Of a DNA stretch of 64,000 nt, positions 15,367 through 59,590 are shown in pieces. The translations under genes and the position numbers were made by a program. Source of the stretch: Hydrogenimonas sp. SS33 (GTDB taxonomy: Bacteria; Campylobacterota; Campylobacteria; Campylobacterales; Hydrogenimonadaceae); the NCBI RefSeq assembly GCF_040436365.1, contig NZ_AP026369.1, positions 1,241,501 to 1,305,500 on the forward strand. The letters run 5' to 3'. Under the pieces are notes generated by a model. It searched no databases. It saw only the letters and a list, made by a program, of their open reading frames with translations, and had not been told where the DNA came from. Each line of letters opens with the position of its first letter. Positions within the stretch are counted from its first letter, which is position 1.

Positions 15367-15757
15367 GAACATCCTTTTTGGTTGCGTCGTTGGTCGTTGG
15401 TCGCTGGTCGCTGGTTTTTTTCTCCAAAGATCGTCTCAACCCATTGATCATGCGACTTATGCTTTCAAGTTCCTGAATCCACTCTTTTCCCTTTTTCATC
15501 TCTATATAATCAATTTTCATGCCAATATAGATTTGGGTTTTCAGTTCCGCTGCGGAACCTAGGGCAATATCAAGAAACCGCCAACTCTCTTTGTCTGAAT
15601 TCCTCTCTAACCCTTCCGCAATATTGCTGGGAATGGAGAGCCCGGAACGCGTAATCTGATCTTTAAATCCAAAATCTTTTGATTCCCGAAATGCCACATA
15701 AATGTCGGCGCTCAAAGCAGCCGACTTTTTCCAAACATCCAAAGATTCACACTTCAT
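15359..15757 (-). CDS. Four-helix-bundle protein (23S IVP/S23 family)
   Basis: This 132-aa protein starts at ATG 15757 (MKCESLDVWKKSAALSADIY), with GGAGAG just upstream. Motifs KDQITRSGLSIPSNIAEGLE and RFLDIALGSAAELKTQI are the core of the four-helix-bundle family first seen in 23S rRNA intervening sequences and related to Avd of diversity-generating retroelements. No enzymatic function is known. The gene interrupts hldE-hldD and is flanked by inverted 7-bp arrays (15389-15416 and 15814-15862). The left array encodes its hydrophilic C-terminal tail. It is more AT-rich than its neighbours, suggesting insertion. Confidence 0.88.
   Translation of the reverse strand: MKCESLDVWKKSAALSADIYVAFRESKDFGFKDQITRSGLSIPSNIAEGLERNSDKESWRFLDIALGSAAELKTQIYIGMKIDYIEMKKGKEWIQELESISRMINGLRRSLEKKTSDQRPTTNDATKKDVHA
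15389..15416. repeat. Heptad array at 3' end of the four-helix-bundle gene
   Basis: Four tandem units on the + strand (GTTGGTC twice, then GCTGGTC and GCTGGTT) are preceded by a decayed partial copy from 15381. The array lies in the C-terminal codons of the four-helix-bundle gene. Its unit is the reverse complement of the array on the gene's other side. Confidence 0.85.
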
Positions 15758-15813
15758 CCGTCTCTCCAACACCAAAACAGTAAATGAACCATCTCAAAAG
15801 CGGCAAAGCCGCA

Positions 15814-15862
15814 CCAACGACCAACGACCAACGACCAACGACTAACGACTAACGACTACTAA
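15814..15862. repeat. Heptad array upstream of the four-helix-bundle gene, containing the hldD stop
   Basis: About seven tandem 7-mers (CCAACGA four times, CTAACGA twice, then a decayed unit) form the inverted mate of the array at 15389. The hldD stop codon (15849-15851, minus strand) lies inside it, so the array supplies the last residues of HldD (VSSR). Confidence 0.88.
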
Positions 15863-25156: not shown

Positions 25157-26311
25157 ATGCAAAGAGAGTCTAAAATCTTCGTCGCCGGCGGCACCGGCCT
25201 CGTCGGCTCGGCCATCGTCAAGAACCTGGTCGAAAAAAGCTACGGAAATATCGTCGCTAACTACCACAGCCGAAAACCCGATGAAGAGCTGCCCATACGG
25301 TGGGAAAAGCTCGACCTTCTCGACCCGTCGGCCGTCCAATCCTTTTTCCAAAAAGAGAAACCAGAATACGTGTTTCTCGCCGCCGCCAAAGTGGGGGGCA
25401 TCGTCGCCAACAATACCTACCGCGCCCAGTTCATCTACGAAAACCTCCAGATTCAAAACAACATCATCCACCAAAGCTATCTCAACGGCGTCAAAAAGCT
25501 GATGTTCCTGGGCTCCACCTGCATCTACCCCAAAGCGTGCCCCCAGCCGATGAAAGAGGAGTATCTGCTCACCGGCGAGCTGGAATACACCAACGAACCC
25601 TACGCCATCGCCAAGATCGCCGGCATCAAGATGTGTGAAAGCTACAACCTGCAGTACGGCACCAACTACATCTCGGTCATGCCCACCAACCTCTATGGGC
25701 CCAACGACAACTTCGACCTGGAAAAGAGCCACGTCCTCCCCGCTCTGATCAGAAAGATCCACCTCGGCAAAGCGCTGGAGCGAAACGACTGGGAGACGAT
25801 CCGAAAAGATCTGAACAAATTGCCGATCGAAGACATAAACGGCACCGCCAAAGAAGAAGAAATTTTAACCATCCTTAAAAAGTACGGCATAAAAACACAT
25901 AACACACAACACGTAACACGTAACACCGATCTCAACGATGTTGAGATCGAAATCTGGGGCAGCGGCAAACCGATGCGCGAATTCCTCTGGAGCGAAGACA
26001 TGGCCGACGCCTGCGTCTTTCTGATGGAAAAGAGAGATTTCAAAGACACGTTCCCTCCCGAAACAAAAGAAGTGCGCAACACCCATATAAATATAGGAAC
26101 GGGAAAGGATATCTCTATTAGGGATCTTGCCTATCTGATCAAAGAGATCATCGGATATAATGGCAACTTCTATTTCAATACCCAAAAGCCGGACGGCACG
26201 ATGAAAAAGCTAACAGACCCTTCCAAACTGCATGCGTTGGGGTGGAGGCATAAGGTCGAACTCGATGAGGGGATAAGAAGAATTTACAATTGGTATTGCA
26301 ATAACGGATAA
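25157..26311 (+). CDS. fcl: GDP-L-fucose synthase
   Basis: This 384-aa epimerase/reductase makes GDP-L-fucose. The NADP site is IFVAGGTGLVGSAIVKNLV. The catalytic set includes FLGSTCIYPK and NEPYAIAKIAGIK. The protein is longer than the usual 310-320 aa. The extra residues (about 200-260) form an insertion, also known from Helicobacter-type enzymes, and residues 246-258 here are encoded by a 7-bp-period array (25894-25928). From about 26.05 kb the gene turns AT-rich, marking the edge of the acquired O-antigen cassette. Confidence 0.92.
   Translation: MQRESKIFVAGGTGLVGSAIVKNLVEKSYGNIVANYHSRKPDEELPIRWEKLDLLDPSAVQSFFQKEKPEYVFLAAAKVGGIVANNTYRAQFIYENLQIQNNIIHQSYLNGVKKLMFLGSTCIYPKACPQPMKEEYLLTGELEYTNEPYAIAKIAGIKMCESYNLQYGTNYISVMPTNLYGPNDNFDLEKSHVLPALIRKIHLGKALERNDWETIRKDLNKLPIEDINGTAKEEEILTILKKYGIKTHNTQHVTRNTDLNDVEIEIWGSGKPMREFLWSEDMADACVFLMEKRDFKDTFPPETKEVRNTHINIGTGKDISIRDLAYLIKEIIGYNGNFYFNTQKPDGTMKKLTDPSKLHALGWRHKVELDEGIRRIYNWYCNNG
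25894..25928. repeat. Heptad array inside fcl (5 units)
   Basis: Five tandem 7-mers (AACACAT, AACACAC, AACACGT twice, AACACCG) are read in frame as a polar KTHNTQHVTRNTD stretch in an insertion loop of GDP-fucose synthase. Confidence 0.85.
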
Positions 26312-38342: not shown

Positions 38343-38372
38343 ACGGGAATCGGGAATCGGGAATCGGGAATA
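38331..38372. repeat. Heptad array at the galE stop (6 units)
   Basis: Six tandem 7-mers are present: AGTGAAC twice, GGGAATC three times and GGGAATA. The galE stop codon is inside the array. Two unit types found separately elsewhere (AGTGAAC at 47562, GATTCCC at 52474) are joined here. Confidence 0.88.
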
Positions 38373-49733: not shown

Positions 49734-52733
49734 CTATTTCCTCAAGGCTTTGAGCACCGTGTCGATCAGGTCGTCGTCATCCCGGCTGCGGGCTTTGAGA
49801 TGCTCTTTTTTCTCCTCATTATACTGAATCGTGATGTTTTCGTTGTAGTTCATGATGCGCTCGACACCCTTTTTGGCCGCCAGGACTTTGATGGTGACAA
49901 GGTCAAGAAACTGCCGCGTGGGCAGGTCGGGTTTGCCGAAACGGTCTTCGATCTCCCGCTCGATCTCCACCACGTCATGCGGCTCGCCGCAGGCGGAAAG
50001 CCGGCGGTAGAGCTCCAGCCGCACCCGGTCGTGGGGTACCAGCTCGTCGGAGATGTAGGCGGTGATGGAGAGCTTGACCTCCACACTCTTTCGCTGGGGC
50101 GTGCCCTCCTGGGTCAGGGCGCGGATAGCGTCTTCCAGCATCTTCAGGTAGAGCGCGTAGCCGATCTGTTTGATGTGCCCGCTCTGGCTCTCTCCGATCA
50201 GGTTGCCGCCACCGCGGATCTCCAGATCGTGGTAGGCCAGCACCGCGCCGCTGCCTAAAAAGCTGTTGGACTCCAGGGCGATGAGCCGCCGCTTCGCCTG
50301 GTCGCTGAGGGCATCCTTGTCCTCCACGAGAAAGTAGCAGTAGCCCTCCACCTTGCCCCGGCCCACGCGCCCGCGCAGCTGGTGCAGGTCCGCCATGCCG
50401 AAACGGTCGGCCCCGTCGACGATCATCGTATTGACCTTGGGCAGGTGGATCCCCGACTCGATGATGGAGGTCGAAAGCAGAAGGTCGTACTCCCCCGCTT
50501 CGAAACGGAGCATCTCCTTTTCGGTCTGTGCCGCCGTAATTTTGGAGTGGAGAATCAGGATGCGCAGGTCGGGCAGCACCTCCAGAAGCTCCTTTTTCTT
50601 GCTCTCGATGCCGGCGATGGAGTTGTAGACGTAAAAGAGCTGTCCGCCCCTTCGCAGTTCGCGCAGCACCGCCTCCTTGACCACCGTTTCGTCGAAACTC
50701 TTGACGAAGGTGCGCACCCCCTTGCGCTCCATCGGCGGGGTGCGCAGTTCGCTGTAGCCTTTGATTTTGGAGAGGGCCATATTGAGGCTTCTCGGTATCG
50801 GGGTGGCGCTCATGGAGAGCACGTGCACATCCGCGCTCATCTGTTTGAGCGCCTCCTTCTGCTTCACACCGAACTTGTGCTCTTCGTCGATGACCACCAG
50901 CCCCAGGTTCTTGAAAGCCGCCCCCAGCAGGGCATGGGTGCCGATGACCAGGTCCAGCTCGCCGTCGGCGAGCCGCTGCAAAATCAGCCGTTTCTGCTTG
51001 GCCGTGGTGAAGCGGTCGAGCTTGTCGATACGCACGCCGAAGGGCTCCAGCCGCGCTTTGACGCTTTTGTAGTGCTGGGCGCTCAACAGGGTGGTGGGGA
51101 CGACGAAAGCGCTCTGGTAGCCCGACTTCGCCACCGCCAAGATGGCGTTCATCGCCACTTCGGTCTTGCCGAACCCAACATCGCCGCTGAGCAGCCTGTC
51201 CATCACCCGCCCGCTGGAGAGGTCGGCGAAAATCTCCTCCACCGCCTGGACCTGGTCGGGGGTATACTCGAAACCCGCCGCTTCGCGAAACTGCGCCAGT
51301 TCCGGGAAATCGGTGCGAATGACCGCCCCTTTGATCAGCATCCGCTGCGCCGACATGTTGACGATTTCGGAAGCGATGGCGAAGAGCTTCTCCTTCACCT
51401 TCGCCTTGAGCCGCCCGAAGCCCCCTTTGCCCAGGCGGTCGAGCACCGGCAGGCTTCCCCCTTCGGCGATGTAGCGGTCGATCATCTCCAGGTTTTCCAC
51501 TGGCAGCAACAAAGCGTCGTCGTTTTGGTACTGGATATGGACGAAATCGCGGGTCGCCCCCAGCACCTGATGGGGTTCGATCCCTTTGAAGATACCCACG
51601 CCGTACTGCTCGTGGACCACGTAATCGCCCGGCTTCAGGTCGTCCAGCAGAATGGCGGGGCGCTTTTTGGCCCGTTTCCTGAAAGGTTTGTTCAGCGAAA
51701 CGACAATGCTCTCGGGGGTGAGCAGATGGACGATGCCGGAGGCCTTCACGACCCTGGCGCGGGCCAGCTCCTTGACGGGGGCGCGCCGCACCAGCGCGTC
51801 GCTCTCGGCCACCAGCACCAGCTCCCTGTCGGGGTACTGGTCGGTCAGCAGGTCCACGTTGATCGGCTCGATCGCTTTGATGCGCGTCGTCTCGGGCACG
51901 ACGGGCAGCTTGAAACGGCTTTGGGGAAGGGCGTTTCCGGCATGTTCGTAGGCGAAGCTGATCTCTTCGGCCATCGGTTTGGCCAGCACCGCCTCGCGCC
52001 CCGCCAGAAGGTCTTGGGCCGACTCCCGCAGGTACCAGAGCCCCAGGGAGGCGGCATCCTTGACGAAGACGTCGGCATCGCTGCCGGCGCAGCGGTCGTT
52101 GAGCGCCTCGAAAGCCTCCTTTTCCAGCGAAAAGAGAGCCGGTTCGATCACGATGCGCTCGATCTCCTCCTCTTTGTTCGATTTCTGGGTCTCTACTTCG
52201 AAGGTGCGGATACTCTCCACCTCCGTATCGAAAAGGCTGATGCGCCAGGGCTTTTCGCTGCCGGGACTGAAGATGTCGATAATGTCGCCCCGCACCGACA
52301 CCTCCCCGGGCGCTTCCACCACATCGACGAAAGTGTAGCCCCAGGCGTAGAAGCGCTCTTTGAGGGCGTTCAGGTCGAGCTCTTCGCCGAATTCGACGGC
52401 AAATGTCTGCAAAAGCTCCGGCTTGGGCAGCGGGTAGAGCAGCGTATGAAAAGGCGCCACCAGCACCACGCCCGCTTCCCGTTTCCCTTTTCCCGATTTC
52501 CGATTCCCGATTCCCGTATAGTAGCGTTTCAGCGCGTCGTTGAGGGCGAGAAGTTCCTCCCGCCAACTGCGGAGGTCTTCGCCGAAGGTGGCCCGAAAAT
52601 CGGGAAGCACCACACTCTCGATGCCGTGAATCGCCGCGACGGTGGCGGCGGTCTGCGCCTCCTTGTCGTCTTCGACGATGAGAATGTCGGGACGGCGGTT
52701 TTGTAAATAGTCATAAAGTCGGGTTTCAATCAT
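49734..52733 (-). CDS. mfd: Transcription-repair coupling factor
   Basis: This 999-aa protein has an N-terminal UvrB-like part, an RNA-polymerase-interacting domain (LKPGDYVVHEQYGVGIFKG), then the helicase with Walker A LSGDVGFGKTEVAMNA, DEEH box VIDEEHKFGVKQ and the GRVGRGKVEGYCYF motif VI. The C-terminal TRCF domain follows. It releases stalled polymerase and recruits UvrA. Residues about 73-87 (GIGNRKSGKGKREAG) are encoded by a heptad array (52474-52515) in a loop of the N-terminal domain. ATG 52733 overlaps the bactofilin stop. Confidence 0.96.
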   Translation of the reverse strand: MIETRLYDYLQNRRPDILIVEDDKEAQTAATVAAIHGIESVVLPDFRATFGEDLRSWREELLALNDALKRYYTGIGNRKSGKGKREAGVVLVAPFHTLLYPLPKPELLQTFAVEFGEELDLNALKERFYAWGYTFVDVVEAPGEVSVRGDIIDIFSPGSEKPWRISLFDTEVESIRTFEVETQKSNKEEEIERIVIEPALFSLEKEAFEALNDRCAGSDADVFVKDAASLGLWYLRESAQDLLAGREAVLAKPMAEEISFAYEHAGNALPQSRFKLPVVPETTRIKAIEPINVDLLTDQYPDRELVLVAESDALVRRAPVKELARARVVKASGIVHLLTPESIVVSLNKPFRKRAKKRPAILLDDLKPGDYVVHEQYGVGIFKGIEPHQVLGATRDFVHIQYQNDDALLLPVENLEMIDRYIAEGGSLPVLDRLGKGGFGRLKAKVKEKLFAIASEIVNMSAQRMLIKGAVIRTDFPELAQFREAAGFEYTPDQVQAVEEIFADLSSGRVMDRLLSGDVGFGKTEVAMNAILAVAKSGYQSAFVVPTTLLSAQHYKSVKARLEPFGVRIDKLDRFTTAKQKRLILQRLADGELDLVIGTHALLGAAFKNLGLVVIDEEHKFGVKQKEALKQMSADVHVLSMSATPIPRSLNMALSKIKGYSELRTPPMERKGVRTFVKSFDETVVKEAVLRELRRGGQLFYVYNSIAGIESKKKELLEVLPDLRILILHSKITAAQTEKEMLRFEAGEYDLLLSTSIIESGIHLPKVNTMIVDGADRFGMADLHQLRGRVGRGKVEGYCYFLVEDKDALSDQAKRRLIALESNSFLGSGAVLAYHDLEIRGGGNLIGESQSGHIKQIGYALYLKMLEDAIRALTQEGTPQRKSVEVKLSITAYISDELVPHDRVRLELYRRLSACGEPHDVVEIEREIEDRFGKPDLPTRQFLDLVTIKVLAAKKGVERIMNYNENITIQYNEEKKEHLKARSRDDDDLIDTVLKALRK
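52474..52515. repeat. Heptad array inside mfd (6 units)
   Basis: Six tandem 7-mers: GCTTCCC, GTTTCCC, TTTTCCC, GATTTCC, GATTCCC twice. Read in frame on the minus strand as a Gly/Lys/Arg-rich loop. Same unit family as galE and dnaX. Confidence 0.85.
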
Positions 52734-56590: not shown

Positions 56591-57126
56591 AGTTTCACTC
56601 CTCTCATCGCCATCCGGGAGATAAAGGCGTCAAGCGCCTTGGCCGACCCCTGTTTGATGGCCTGGAAACGCAGTGCATCGGAGATGACCGCTTTGGGTTC
56701 GATGGGGAAGTCGTAAAAACCGGTCACCGTCTCGGTGCCGTGGGCGGTGGGGGAGCGGTAGGCGATGGTGAGGGTCACTTTCGCCCGGTAGTAGATGGCA
56801 TAGCCGTTGACATCGTACTGGATCGGCATGAAGGAAACACTGTTGAAGCGGACATGCAGGATCGTCGTGGCCTCTTTCTTGCTCACGACTCGGGCACCGA
56901 AACGGCTGACGATCGCCTCGTTGAGGGCATCCTTGACCAAAACGCTGTTTTCGGGGTCGCGGAGGTAGATCTCCGAATCGACGTAAATTTTGTCGCTGAG
57001 GACCTTTTTCGTGTAGACGGTCGAAGGTTTGTAGCCGCAGCCACTGAAAACAAAAAGAGTGAGAAGTAAGAAGTAAGAAGTGAGAAGTCTCCACTCCCCC
57101 GTTTTCAAAAACTTCCCACTCCTCAC
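56587..57126 (-). CDS. lptE: LptE-like LPS-assembly lipoprotein
   Basis: This 179-aa lipoprotein's lipobox Cys is residue 30 (VFSGCGYKPS). The mature part has VLSDKIYVDSEIYLRDPENS and RFNSVSFMPIQYDVNGYAIYY, as in small LptE proteins that plug LptD. No ATG is available. GTG at 57124-57126 with GAGGAG 8 bp upstream is the best start. The RBS, start codon and signal-peptide core (LLTSYFLLLT, residues 14-23) all lie in or at two inverted heptad arrays (57058-57085 and 57111-57138). The usual HP1546-type position next to leuS supports the assignment. Confidence 0.82.
   Translation of the reverse strand: MRSGKFLKTGEWRLLTSYFLLLTLFVFSGCGYKPSTVYTKKVLSDKIYVDSEIYLRDPENSVLVKDALNEAIVSRFGARVVSKKEATTILHVRFNSVSFMPIQYDVNGYAIYYRAKVTLTIAYRSPTAHGTETVTGFYDFPIEPKAVISDALRFQAIKQGSAKALDAFISRMAMRGVKL
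57058..57085. repeat. Heptad array encoding the lptE signal-peptide core (4 units)
   Basis: AGTGAGA, AGTAAGA twice, AGTGAGA. Read on the minus strand the TCTTACT/TCTCACT units encode the hydrophobic stretch of the LptE lipoprotein signal. Inverted mate at 57111. Confidence 0.85.
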
Positions 57127-57138
57127 TTCCCACTCCTC
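57111..57138. repeat. Heptad array carrying the lptE RBS and start codon (4 units)
   Basis: ACTTCCC and ACTCCTC alternate twice. On the minus strand they give GAGGAGT and GGGAAGT: one unit is the Shine-Dalgarno and the next carries the GTG start. Ends 8 bp before the leuS stop. Confidence 0.85.
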
Positions 57139-57145
57139 ACTAAAA

Positions 57146-59590
57146 CTATTTGACGACCAGATTGACCAGTTTGTTCGGCACGACGATCTCTTTGACGACG
57201 GTTTTGCCCTCCAGCCATTTGGGTACGGCGGCTTTGGCCGCGGCAATGATCGCCTCTTTGTCGGCATCGGGCGCCACTTCGATCTGGGCTCTCGGTTTTC
57301 CGTTGACGGAGACGGCCATCGGCACGGCATCGACTTCGAAAACCTCCTCTTTCATTTCTACCAAGCCAAAATTGTTCCTTTTGAAGAGGCGGTCGCTGAG
57401 TTCCCAGGCGATATGGGGCACGATGGGCTCCAGGAGGTTGAGCACGATCCACATCCCCTCCTGCCAAACCTTGGAATCGCTCTGCCTGTCCAGGGCGTTG
57501 ATCGCCTCCATACAGGCGGCGATGAGGGTATTGAAGGTGAAACGCTCGCCATAGACCTCTTCCCCTCTTTTCAGGGCTTCGTACACCTTTTTTCTCGCCT
57601 CTTTCTCACTTTTTCCGAGCCCCCGGTGGTCGATGGCGGGCAACGCCTCGCAGGGCTCCACCTTCTGCGCCCGGTCGTAGAGTTTGCGAAGGAAGCGGTG
57701 GGCCCCCTCGACGGCGCTGTCGTTCCACTCCAGCTCCTGGGTCGGCGGGGCCGCGAAGAGGATGAAGAGGCGGGCCGTGTCGGCGCCGTAACGGGCCACC
57801 AGCTCGTCGGGGTCGACCACATTGCCTTTCGATTTGCTCATCTTCGCCCCGTCTTTGAGCACCATCCCCTGGGTCAGCAGCCGGGAGAAGGGCTCGTCGA
57901 TCTTCACATACCCCAGGTCCCGCAGCGCCTTGGTGAAGAAGCGGGCATAGAGCAGGTGCAAAATGGCGTGCTCGATACCGCCGATGTACTGGTCCACGGG
58001 CATCCAGTACCCCACATCCTCTTCGGTGAAGGGCACCTCTTCCCAGAAGCGCCGCGGCGTCGTGTAGCGCAGGAAATACCAACTGCTCTGCACGAAAGTG
58101 TCCAGCGTGTCCGTTTCGCGGACGGCATCGCTGCCGCATCGGGGGCACTTCGTAAATTTCCATGTGGGATGGTGGTCCAGCGGGTTGCCTTCACCGGTAA
58201 TCTCCACATCGTCCGGCAGCGTGACGGGCAGATTCTCTTTCGCTTCGGGAACCACGCCGCATTTGGGGCAGTGGATCATCGGAATCGGCGCCCCCCAGTA
58301 GCGCTGACGGCTCACGCCCCAATCCTTGAGCCGGAAGTTGATCACCCTCTTTCCGAGCCCCTTTTTCTCGAACCAGGCGATGATGGCGTCTCTGGCTTCC
58401 CGGCCGTAGAGGCCGTCGAACTCGCCGCACCCCTGCACCACCCCGTCTTCGGTATAGGCACCGTTTTCGGGCAGTGCACCCTCTTTGGGGAAGACGACGG
58501 GTTTGACGGGCAGGCCGTACTTCTTCGCGAAGTCGTAATCCCGGCTGTCATGGGCGGGCACCGCCATCACCGCGCCGCTGCCGTACTCCATCAGAACGAA
58601 GTTGGCGGTCCAGACCGGCACCTTTTCGCCGGTCACCGGATGAACCGCCTCGATACCCAGCGGCACCCCCTCCTTTTCGGCCATGTTACGCTCCCGCACC
58701 GGCATGCGGCGCATCGCTTCGATCTTCGTTTTGGCCGTATCGTCCAGCAGCCCTTTTTGCATCAGCGCTTCCACCAGCGGATGCTCGGGTGCCACGGCGG
58801 CATAGGTGACGCCGCAGATCGTGTCGGGGCGGGTCGTAAAGACTTCGAAAGACTCGATGCCGGTTTTTTGTGCACTCTCTTCGTCGAGTCGGAAGGCGAA
58901 CTCCAGCCCCGTGCTCTTGCCGATCCAGTTGCGCTGCATGGCGATAACCTGTTGGGGCCATCCGCCTTCGAGCTTTTTCAAATCTTCCAGCAGTTCGTCG
59001 GCGTAGTCGGTGATTTTGATGTAGTACTGGTACATCTCCTTCTGCACGATCGGCGTGTCGCACCGCCAGCAGCAGCCGTCGATCACCTGTTCGTTGGCCA
59101 GCACCGTCCGGTCGTGGGGGCACCAGTTCAGATACCCCTTCTTGCGGTAGACCAGCCCCTTCTCCCACATGTCGATGAAGAACGCCTGTTCATATTTGGT
59201 GTAGAGGGGATCGCAGGTGGCGAATTCCCGATCCTTGGAGAAGCTGAGCCCCAGCGCCGCCAGCTCCTTGCGCATGTAGTCGATATTTTCGTAGGTCCAT
59301 TTTTTCGGGTGCACCTTGTGCTTGATGGCGGCATTCTCCGCCGGCATTCCGAAGGCGTCCCAGCCGATGGGGTGAAGTACGTTGTGCCCCTTCTTCCGCC
59401 AGTAGCGGGCGATGGAGTCACCGATGGCGTAGTTGCGCACGTGCCCCATATGGATCCGCCCGCTGGGGTAGGGAAACATGCTCAGCACATACTTTTTGGG
59501 CTTCTCATTCCCCTCTTCGGGCTCGAAGCTCCCATGCTCGTCCCAATATCGCTGCCACTTCTTCTCGATTTCGGAAGGGTTGTATTTCAT
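57146..59590 (-). CDS. leuS: Leucyl-tRNA synthetase
   Basis: This 814-aa class I enzyme has the HIGH-type motif [17 protein letters not shown] near residue 40 and [14 protein letters not shown] near residue 580. The CP1 editing domain (about 220-410) has the TTRPDTICG and [13 protein letters not shown] segments. A zinc-ribbon-like C-x2-C pair is in HCPKCG and KCPRCG. The start overlaps the HEPN stop by 4 bp. The length is usual for bacterial LeuS. Confidence 0.97.

Follow-up and report, generated by a model that had tools for sequence, protein, structure and literature searches.

Heptanucleotide repeats are already known as a class, including copies located near start codons and a few placed in frame at the ends of proteins. 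In the long simple sequence repeats that Mrazek et al. (2007) studied in prokaryotes, as presented in PMC4679880 and PMC4692102, seven-base units dominate, many families occur per genome, the arrays are mainly intergenic and an origin by polymerase slippage is proposed, all of which resembles the situation described below. The arrays considered here differ from the repeats of that account in that they are also found as predicted in-frame signal peptide h-regions and as Shine-Dalgarno (SD) and start sequences, and in that arrays at orthologous positions change their unit.

The TAACTGA heptamer repeats of marine Beggiatoaceae, cyanobacteria and Bacteroidetes (PMC4679880) likewise adjoin start codons, have been suggested to play a translational role and include rare in-frame copies at protein ends. 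They consist essentially of one unit and mostly end just upstream of the start codon, without a canonical ribosome binding site (PMC4679880), whereas here many units are found and the array would supply both an SD sequence and an export signal. The G4-forming GGGAATC and GGGGATT heptads of Xanthomonas and Nostoc are also intergenic and vary strongly in sequence and length between close relatives (PMC4692102). In contrast to the arrays at lptE, which are purine- or pyrimidine-rich and predicted to be translated, they have G-rich units, which are discussed as G-quadruplexes and occur less often than expected on coding strands (PMC4692102).

The tetra- and heptanucleotide simple sequence repeats of phase variation in Haemophilus influenzae (PMC2651432) are comparable as short repeats near the starts of envelope genes. 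Here, however, the repeat-encoded peptide itself is the predicted h-region, and no switching of copy number was seen. Palindromic elements of Rickettsia are mobile elements of approximately 100-150 bp, located in frame inside mature proteins. As with these elements (mentioned in PMC2694212 and PMC3767692), the present case involves repeat DNA translated inside host genes, the difference being that here tandem heptads lie at signal peptides. In the openly accessible literature that was searched, we came across no report of heptads serving repeatedly as signal-peptide h-regions, or supplying the SD sequence and start codon of an LPS-assembly gene.

Results

Organization of the leuS-lptE junction

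The window (the whole analysed stretch of 64,000 nucleotides) is part of the closed 2.25-Mb genome of Hydrogenimonas sp. SS33, labelled G000. In this window, the gap between leuS and the sequence of mature LptE is filled by two oppositely oriented heptad arrays (Table 1). TRF describes the downstream array as a repeat of period 7 (4.4 copies, 91%) and the upstream one as a repeat of a 14-mer, i.e. two heptads (2.2 copies, 100%). The initial annotation had read from the minus strand of these arrays a GAGGAG motif, a GTG start and the hydrophobic core LLTSYFLLLT, which is confirmed by TRF and by the coordinates; the arrays are present as it described, except that the upstream one ends at 57141 and not at 57138. 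Gene leuS precedes lptE in all 18 of the 18 loci examined in detail, and a consensus scan revealed no promoter between the two genes.

Table 1. Features of the leuS-lptE junction (window coordinates)
Feature	Position	Strand	Remarks
leuS (leucyl-tRNA synthetase)	57146..59590	-	Pfam PF13603, PF00133, PF09334
leuS stop codon TAG	57148-57146	-	4 nt upstream of first array
Upstream heptad array	57111..57141	-	AGTGAGGAGTGGGAAGTGAGGAGTGGGAAGT, units GTGAGGA/GTGGGAA; mRNA purine-rich
Shine-Dalgarno-like GAGGAG within upstream array	57133..57138	-	6 nt before GTG; based on sequence and anti-SD duplex
GTG, most likely LptE start codon	57124..57126	-	in frame with mature protein
TTG, alternative in-frame start codon	57106..57108	-	also the pick of a coding-score gene caller
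Downstream heptad array	57058..57088	-	ACTTCTCACTTCTTACTTCTTACTTCTCACT; mRNA pyrimidine-rich; predicted to encode LLTSYFLLLT h-region
Lipobox cysteine codon (FVFSGC), residue 1 of mature LptE	57037..57039	-	based on sequence
lptE CDS from GTG, 179 aa	56587..57126	-	Pfam PF04390, E 4.5e-6
Predicted mRNA hairpin of both arrays	57058..57141	-	covers SD, GTG and h-region codons

Mature LptE matches PF04390 with 27.8 bits, above the gathering cut-off of 23, and in an NCBIfam search no model matched it. The gene occurs in a single copy in the genome and is present in 58 of 60 relatives; the frame of the mature protein is intact over 155 aa and conserved at 67-78% within the genus.

There are two candidate start codons, which lie within the upstream array or immediately after it, both with a repeat-derived SD sequence. 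GTG 57126 is the most likely start; from it LptE would be made as MRSGKFLKTGEWRLLTSYFLLLTLFVFSGC, followed by the mature sequence GYKPST.... Its GAGGAG motif forms an anti-SD duplex of -8.9 kcal/mol, versus -5.0 kcal/mol for a generic GTGAGAA array. The other candidate, TTG 57108-57106 (MKTGEWRLLTSYFLLLTLFVFSGC), has a second copy of GAGGAG 10 nt upstream, with equal anti-SD energy (-8.9). The previous statement that there is no other in-frame start was too strong, since this equally well placed TTG has a repeat-derived SD of its own, but it holds for the segment between the arrays and the lipobox cysteine, which contains no in-frame ATG, GTG or TTG. Therefore, if LptE is exported, its h-region is repeat-encoded. 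The predicted peptide MRSGKFLKTGEWRLLTSYFLLLTLFVFSGC has a positive n-region, a hydrophobic h-region (max KD11 2.35), an SGC lipobox and a cysteine orthologous to that of its relatives, and these features point to export of LptE via an array-encoded signal peptide.

Heptad repeats in the window and in the genome

The lptE arrays belong to a genome-wide population of repeats that is confined to period 7. At a score of at least 14, there are 8 period-7 arrays in the window and none at periods 4-6 and 8-12, and 4th-order Markov simulations of the window, run for periods 5-9, yielded 0 arrays at this score. In 800 kb of the genome 51 period-7 arrays were detected, versus 0-5 for periods 4-6 and 8-12; the 32 period-14 arrays found in the 800 kb are the same period-7 arrays read as double units. 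The survey of the genome was performed on an 864-kb sample, window included, in which 48 of 59 arrays are intergenic. Other Hydrogenimonas genomes contain 4 (G016), 5 (G002) and 13 (G003) arrays per 400 kb. Sixteen copies of GTGAGAA (L103) and 21 of CTTCTCA (L070) represent one unit family with the lptE arrays. Being 7-bp arrays beyond chance expectation, and sharing their unit family with other arrays of this genome, the lptE arrays are heptanucleotide long simple sequence repeats.

The genome also contains 23 interspersed copies of an element whose 92-nt core is conserved; none of 17 genus relatives has one. Up to three heptad arrays occupy set positions in this element, and their unit is exchanged between copies (CATTGGG or GTCATTG; ACTACCC or CTTCTCA). 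Examples (G000 C1) are L092:10010-10400, L067:4050-4380 and L069:990-1270, and one copy begins approximately 630 bp past the window end. The presence of a mobile element at lptE itself was considered and rejected, as the 92-nt core gives no match there.

Among other arrays of the window, inverted GTTGGTC and ACCAACG arrays lie approximately 400 bp apart (15386-15858), the GTTGGTC unit being found also at lptE of G016, and the GGGAATC family is represented by CGGGAAT (position 38344). Several heptads are located in frame within genes: CCCGATT inside mfd (TRCF; window 52471-52516), encoding TGIGNRKSGKGKREA; AACACAT-like units in a gene for an NAD-dependent epimerase/dehydratase (window 25894-25926), encoding KTHNTQHVTRNT; and CCGATTC in a carB-like gene, its identity judged by eye (L064:1346-1375), encoding PIPDSRFPIS.

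lptE leaders in related genomes

Heptads are present at the lptE leader in 6 of 15 Hydrogenimonas orthologs, with differing units, and absent from the other 9. The units are GTTCACT in G008, TCTTCAC in G004, GTTGGTC followed by decayed TTCACTG in G016, GTGAGGA/GTGAGAA followed by ATCCATC in G003, and TGAATTA followed by ATTCAAC in G009. In the heptad-bearing orthologs the frame is open from an upstream start into LptE, and the lipobox (SGC, AGC or TGC) is conserved among lptE orthologs. A tree of leuS+lptE, in which several supports are modest (63-81), places G000, G016, G008 and G004 together, and G003 and G009 on the other side of the genus. G003 shares with G000 a sequence of 19 nt, GTGAGGAGTGGGAAGTGAG, located at an equal distance from the leuS stop (5 nt after it), as well as the same SD-N6-GTG arrangement; because of this common sequence, the repeat-borne SD-N6-GTG occurs in two lineages.

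The initial annotation had named relatives having the same signal peptide without period-7 structure as evidence against its interpretation. This is not what is seen in the sister pair G007/G011, which has no lptE heptads and whose signal peptide, MKRWMGVIVTAFFLLAGC, is unrelated. Heptads are not required at lptE, since 9 of the 15 genus members have ordinary signal peptides. The heptad signal peptides tend to have a lower max KD11 (1.7-2.8, versus 2.3-3.1 for non-heptad orthologs).

In genomes outside Hydrogenimonas there is usually hardly any gap between leuS and lptE, and the signal peptide is short and ordinary. The exceptions seen are L049, in which heptads occur only between the genes, and a Nautiliaceae MAG (L063:2915-3015), which repeats the two-array design: TGGAAAA units with a GTG are followed by CCATTTT/ACATTTT units, reading SIIHFTFYI ahead of the lipobox.

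Other exported proteins and the synonymous-codon control

Two further predicted h-regions of G000 are built of heptads: that of an M16 peptidase (signal peptide MKSFLKLFTVHCSLFTLFTG...; TTCACTG units) and that of a TolC-type OEP, an outer-membrane protein (MRVIGYWLLVIGFSVTSAQA; GGTTATT units). Among M16 orthologs of the genus, those of G011 (TTTTCAC) and G007 (CCTTTTA) also have a signal peptide made of heptads; the arrays of G016 and G012 are decayed. When the M16 genes of G007 (L154) and G011 (L148) are compared, the block of 56 nt that begins with the start codon and includes the array shows 70% identity, against about 94-100% in the neighbouring 100-base blocks. All units of the two arrays differ, the same two changes recurring in successive units, and both length and frame are kept. 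The M16 array is a case of concerted unit turnover under length and frame constraint. Slippage or recombination may create and swap the heptad units.

As a control, the peptide was fixed and codons were drawn from G000 usage (5000 draws per signal peptide). The lptE signal peptide has a period-7 score of 18, as compared with a maximum of 11 in 5000 simulations, and for 9 of the 12 signal peptides tested the observed score was reached in 0 of 5000. In the remaining three, which are decayed, 12-24 of 5000 simulations reached it; decay is the reason for the weaker period-7 signal of the G016 and G012 arrays.

The predicted mRNA hairpin

It had also been suspected that the inverted units fold, and in silico the hairpin proves to be both real and extreme. 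The arms pair in lptE mRNA at 31 of 31 positions, six of them as G.U, and the six differences between the arms are all G.U in the mRNA sense. The leader fold has a predicted energy of -60 kcal/mol (z -8.2), with SD and start codon buried. The arm duplex reaches -48.9 in the sense versus -27.3 in the antisense orientation, and the antisense strand of the leader folds less well (-26.9). Among 163 genes of the sample with a hydrophobic N-terminus, the lptE leader fold is the strongest (z -6.9; next -3.5; mean -0.22).

The hairpin follows from the inverted arrangement of the arrays. It is not conserved in the genus, because the other array-bearing Hydrogenimonas lptE leaders fold weakly (z +0.3 to -1.8); the Nautiliaceae leader (L063) folds strongly (z -5.1). 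A search of Rfam gave no match for the lptE leader, and a conserved RNA leader (thermometer or attenuator) was rejected, there being no conserved fold in the genus and no Rfam family. An RNA thermometer was also rejected on the grounds that in silico the hairpin is closed at 65 C, with an SD unpaired probability of 0.007. Nor do neighbouring arrays form hairpins as a general rule (mean duplex -11.5 observed versus -16.0 in random pairings); the lptE pair is unusual, since other array pairs of this genome show on average no complementarity.

On free mRNA, a hairpin of -60 kcal/mol over the SD sequence and start codon should strongly impede initiation. Relief would come from ribosomes that load while the second arm is still to be transcribed, or from leuS ribosomes. 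It is probable that the hairpin lowers LptE synthesis, and it may couple this synthesis to leuS translation or to transcription.

Discussion

We consider it likely that the generic genomic heptad pair between leuS and lptE is translated, supplying the SD sequence, the start codon and the h-region. The proposal of the initial annotation that repeat DNA has been recruited as a start region and export signal is supported by four independent lines: the lack of a start between the arrays and the lipobox cysteine, the heptads of orthologs, the other exported proteins and the synonymous-codon null. The best reading is that generic heptads persist at a site that permits them and have been adjusted by point changes. 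A pair of generic heptad repeats would have come to lie between the two genes. Its purine-rich member would yield the SD sequence and start codon, and its pyrimidine-rich member would encode the hydrophobic core of the signal peptide of the lipoprotein. Point changes may then have tuned the arrays, from GAGAAG to GAGGAG (SD) and from TTCTCAC to TTCTTAC (hydrophobicity). Compared with GTGAGAA, the upstream array has GAGGAG and GGGAAG units, with anti-SD pairing of -8.9 instead of -5.0 kcal/mol; compared with generic TTCTCAC, two units of the lptE array are TTCTTAC, which converts SHFSLLT to SYFLLLT and raises mean KD from 0.66 to 1.25. We infer from these sequence differences the direction of the changes and that they are adaptive.

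Signal peptides are known to tolerate almost any hydrophobic sequence. As the h-region needs only hydrophobicity, almost any stop-free, mildly hydrophobic array orientation could act as an h-region. Since 7 and 3 share no factor, a tandem heptad gives one 7-residue cycle in all three frames, which is why an array works as coding sequence. In most unit families one orientation is stop-free and often mildly hydrophobic, with cycles including HCSLFTV, GHWSLVI, IGYWLLV and LTSHFSL, and the opposite orientation often contains stops. The idea of self-correcting starts, with a GTG every 7 nt in three frames, was rejected, as only two frames stay open.

It is possible, if rather doubtful, that the inverted arrays are kept mainly as a regulatory RNA hairpin (translational attenuation, leuS coupling or transcription attenuation) and that their coding use is secondary. 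The top rank of the lptE leader fold, the restriction of the arm differences to G.U in the mRNA sense, the complementarity that sets this pair apart from the average array pair of the genome and the strong fold of the unrelated Nautiliaceae leader argue for such a role, but the weak folds of the other array-bearing Hydrogenimonas leaders and the lack of an Rfam match argue against it. Moreover, the six G.U sites are not independent, because they are located in repeated units, and the changes that give G.U pairs also improve the SD sequence and hydrophobicity. As for leuS coupling, 19 nt separate the GTG from the leuS stop, and in tested pairs hardly any termination-reinitiation remains at such a spacing (PMC10666635). 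We think it unlikely that the arrays are kept and replaced as blocks by an active length- and frame-preserving process, with envelope export signals evolving by whole-array unit swaps and, in addition, a selected translation-limiting hairpin at lptE.

A phase-variable (contingency) switch, with LptE turned on or off by a frameshift whenever a 7-bp unit is gained or lost, is suggested by the fact that 7 is not a multiple of 3, by the differences in length and sequence that intergenic heptads show among close Xanthomonas species (PMC4692102), by the phase variation mediated by heptanucleotide repeats near the hmw genes of Haemophilus influenzae (PMC2651432) and by the turnover of M16 arrays between close genomes. 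The frame argument of the initial annotation is arithmetically correct, but the arrays are only about four units long and the compared arrays keep the frame; between genomes the unit sequence was seen to change and the unit number was not, and no length variants were seen within a species. LptE is essential in E. coli and is therefore a poor candidate for an OFF state. We regard a switch of this kind as improbable. It is even less probable that translation begins at another place, leaving the array segment untranslated, or that lptE is decaying: the start codon is not ATG and the predicted start lies under the -60 kcal/mol hairpin, but no start exists between the arrays and the lipobox cysteine, the heptad-bearing orthologs are open in frame from an upstream start, and the gene is conserved, intact over the 155 aa of its mature part, single-copy and present in 58 of 60 genomes. 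The possibility that the T-rich codons of any signal peptide appear period-7 by chance can practically be dismissed; h-regions are indeed of low complexity and pyrimidine-rich, but this coincidence is refuted by the synonymous-codon simulations, other periods are absent, and the unit families are common to long intergenic arrays.

Recruitment of generic heptads at lptE would be a natural example, and one that recurs, of low-complexity repeat DNA turned into a working start region and export signal of an LPS-assembly gene. The orthologs show how hydrophobic signal sequences arise and get swapped, and the case offers a reason why coding sequence can take up heptads, in contrast to other repeats that break the frame. 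The predicted hairpin over the lptE start raises the testable question of how lptE is expressed. Species related to this hydrothermal-vent bacterium appear to have recruited repeats in a similar way, using other 7-base units and also at further genes.
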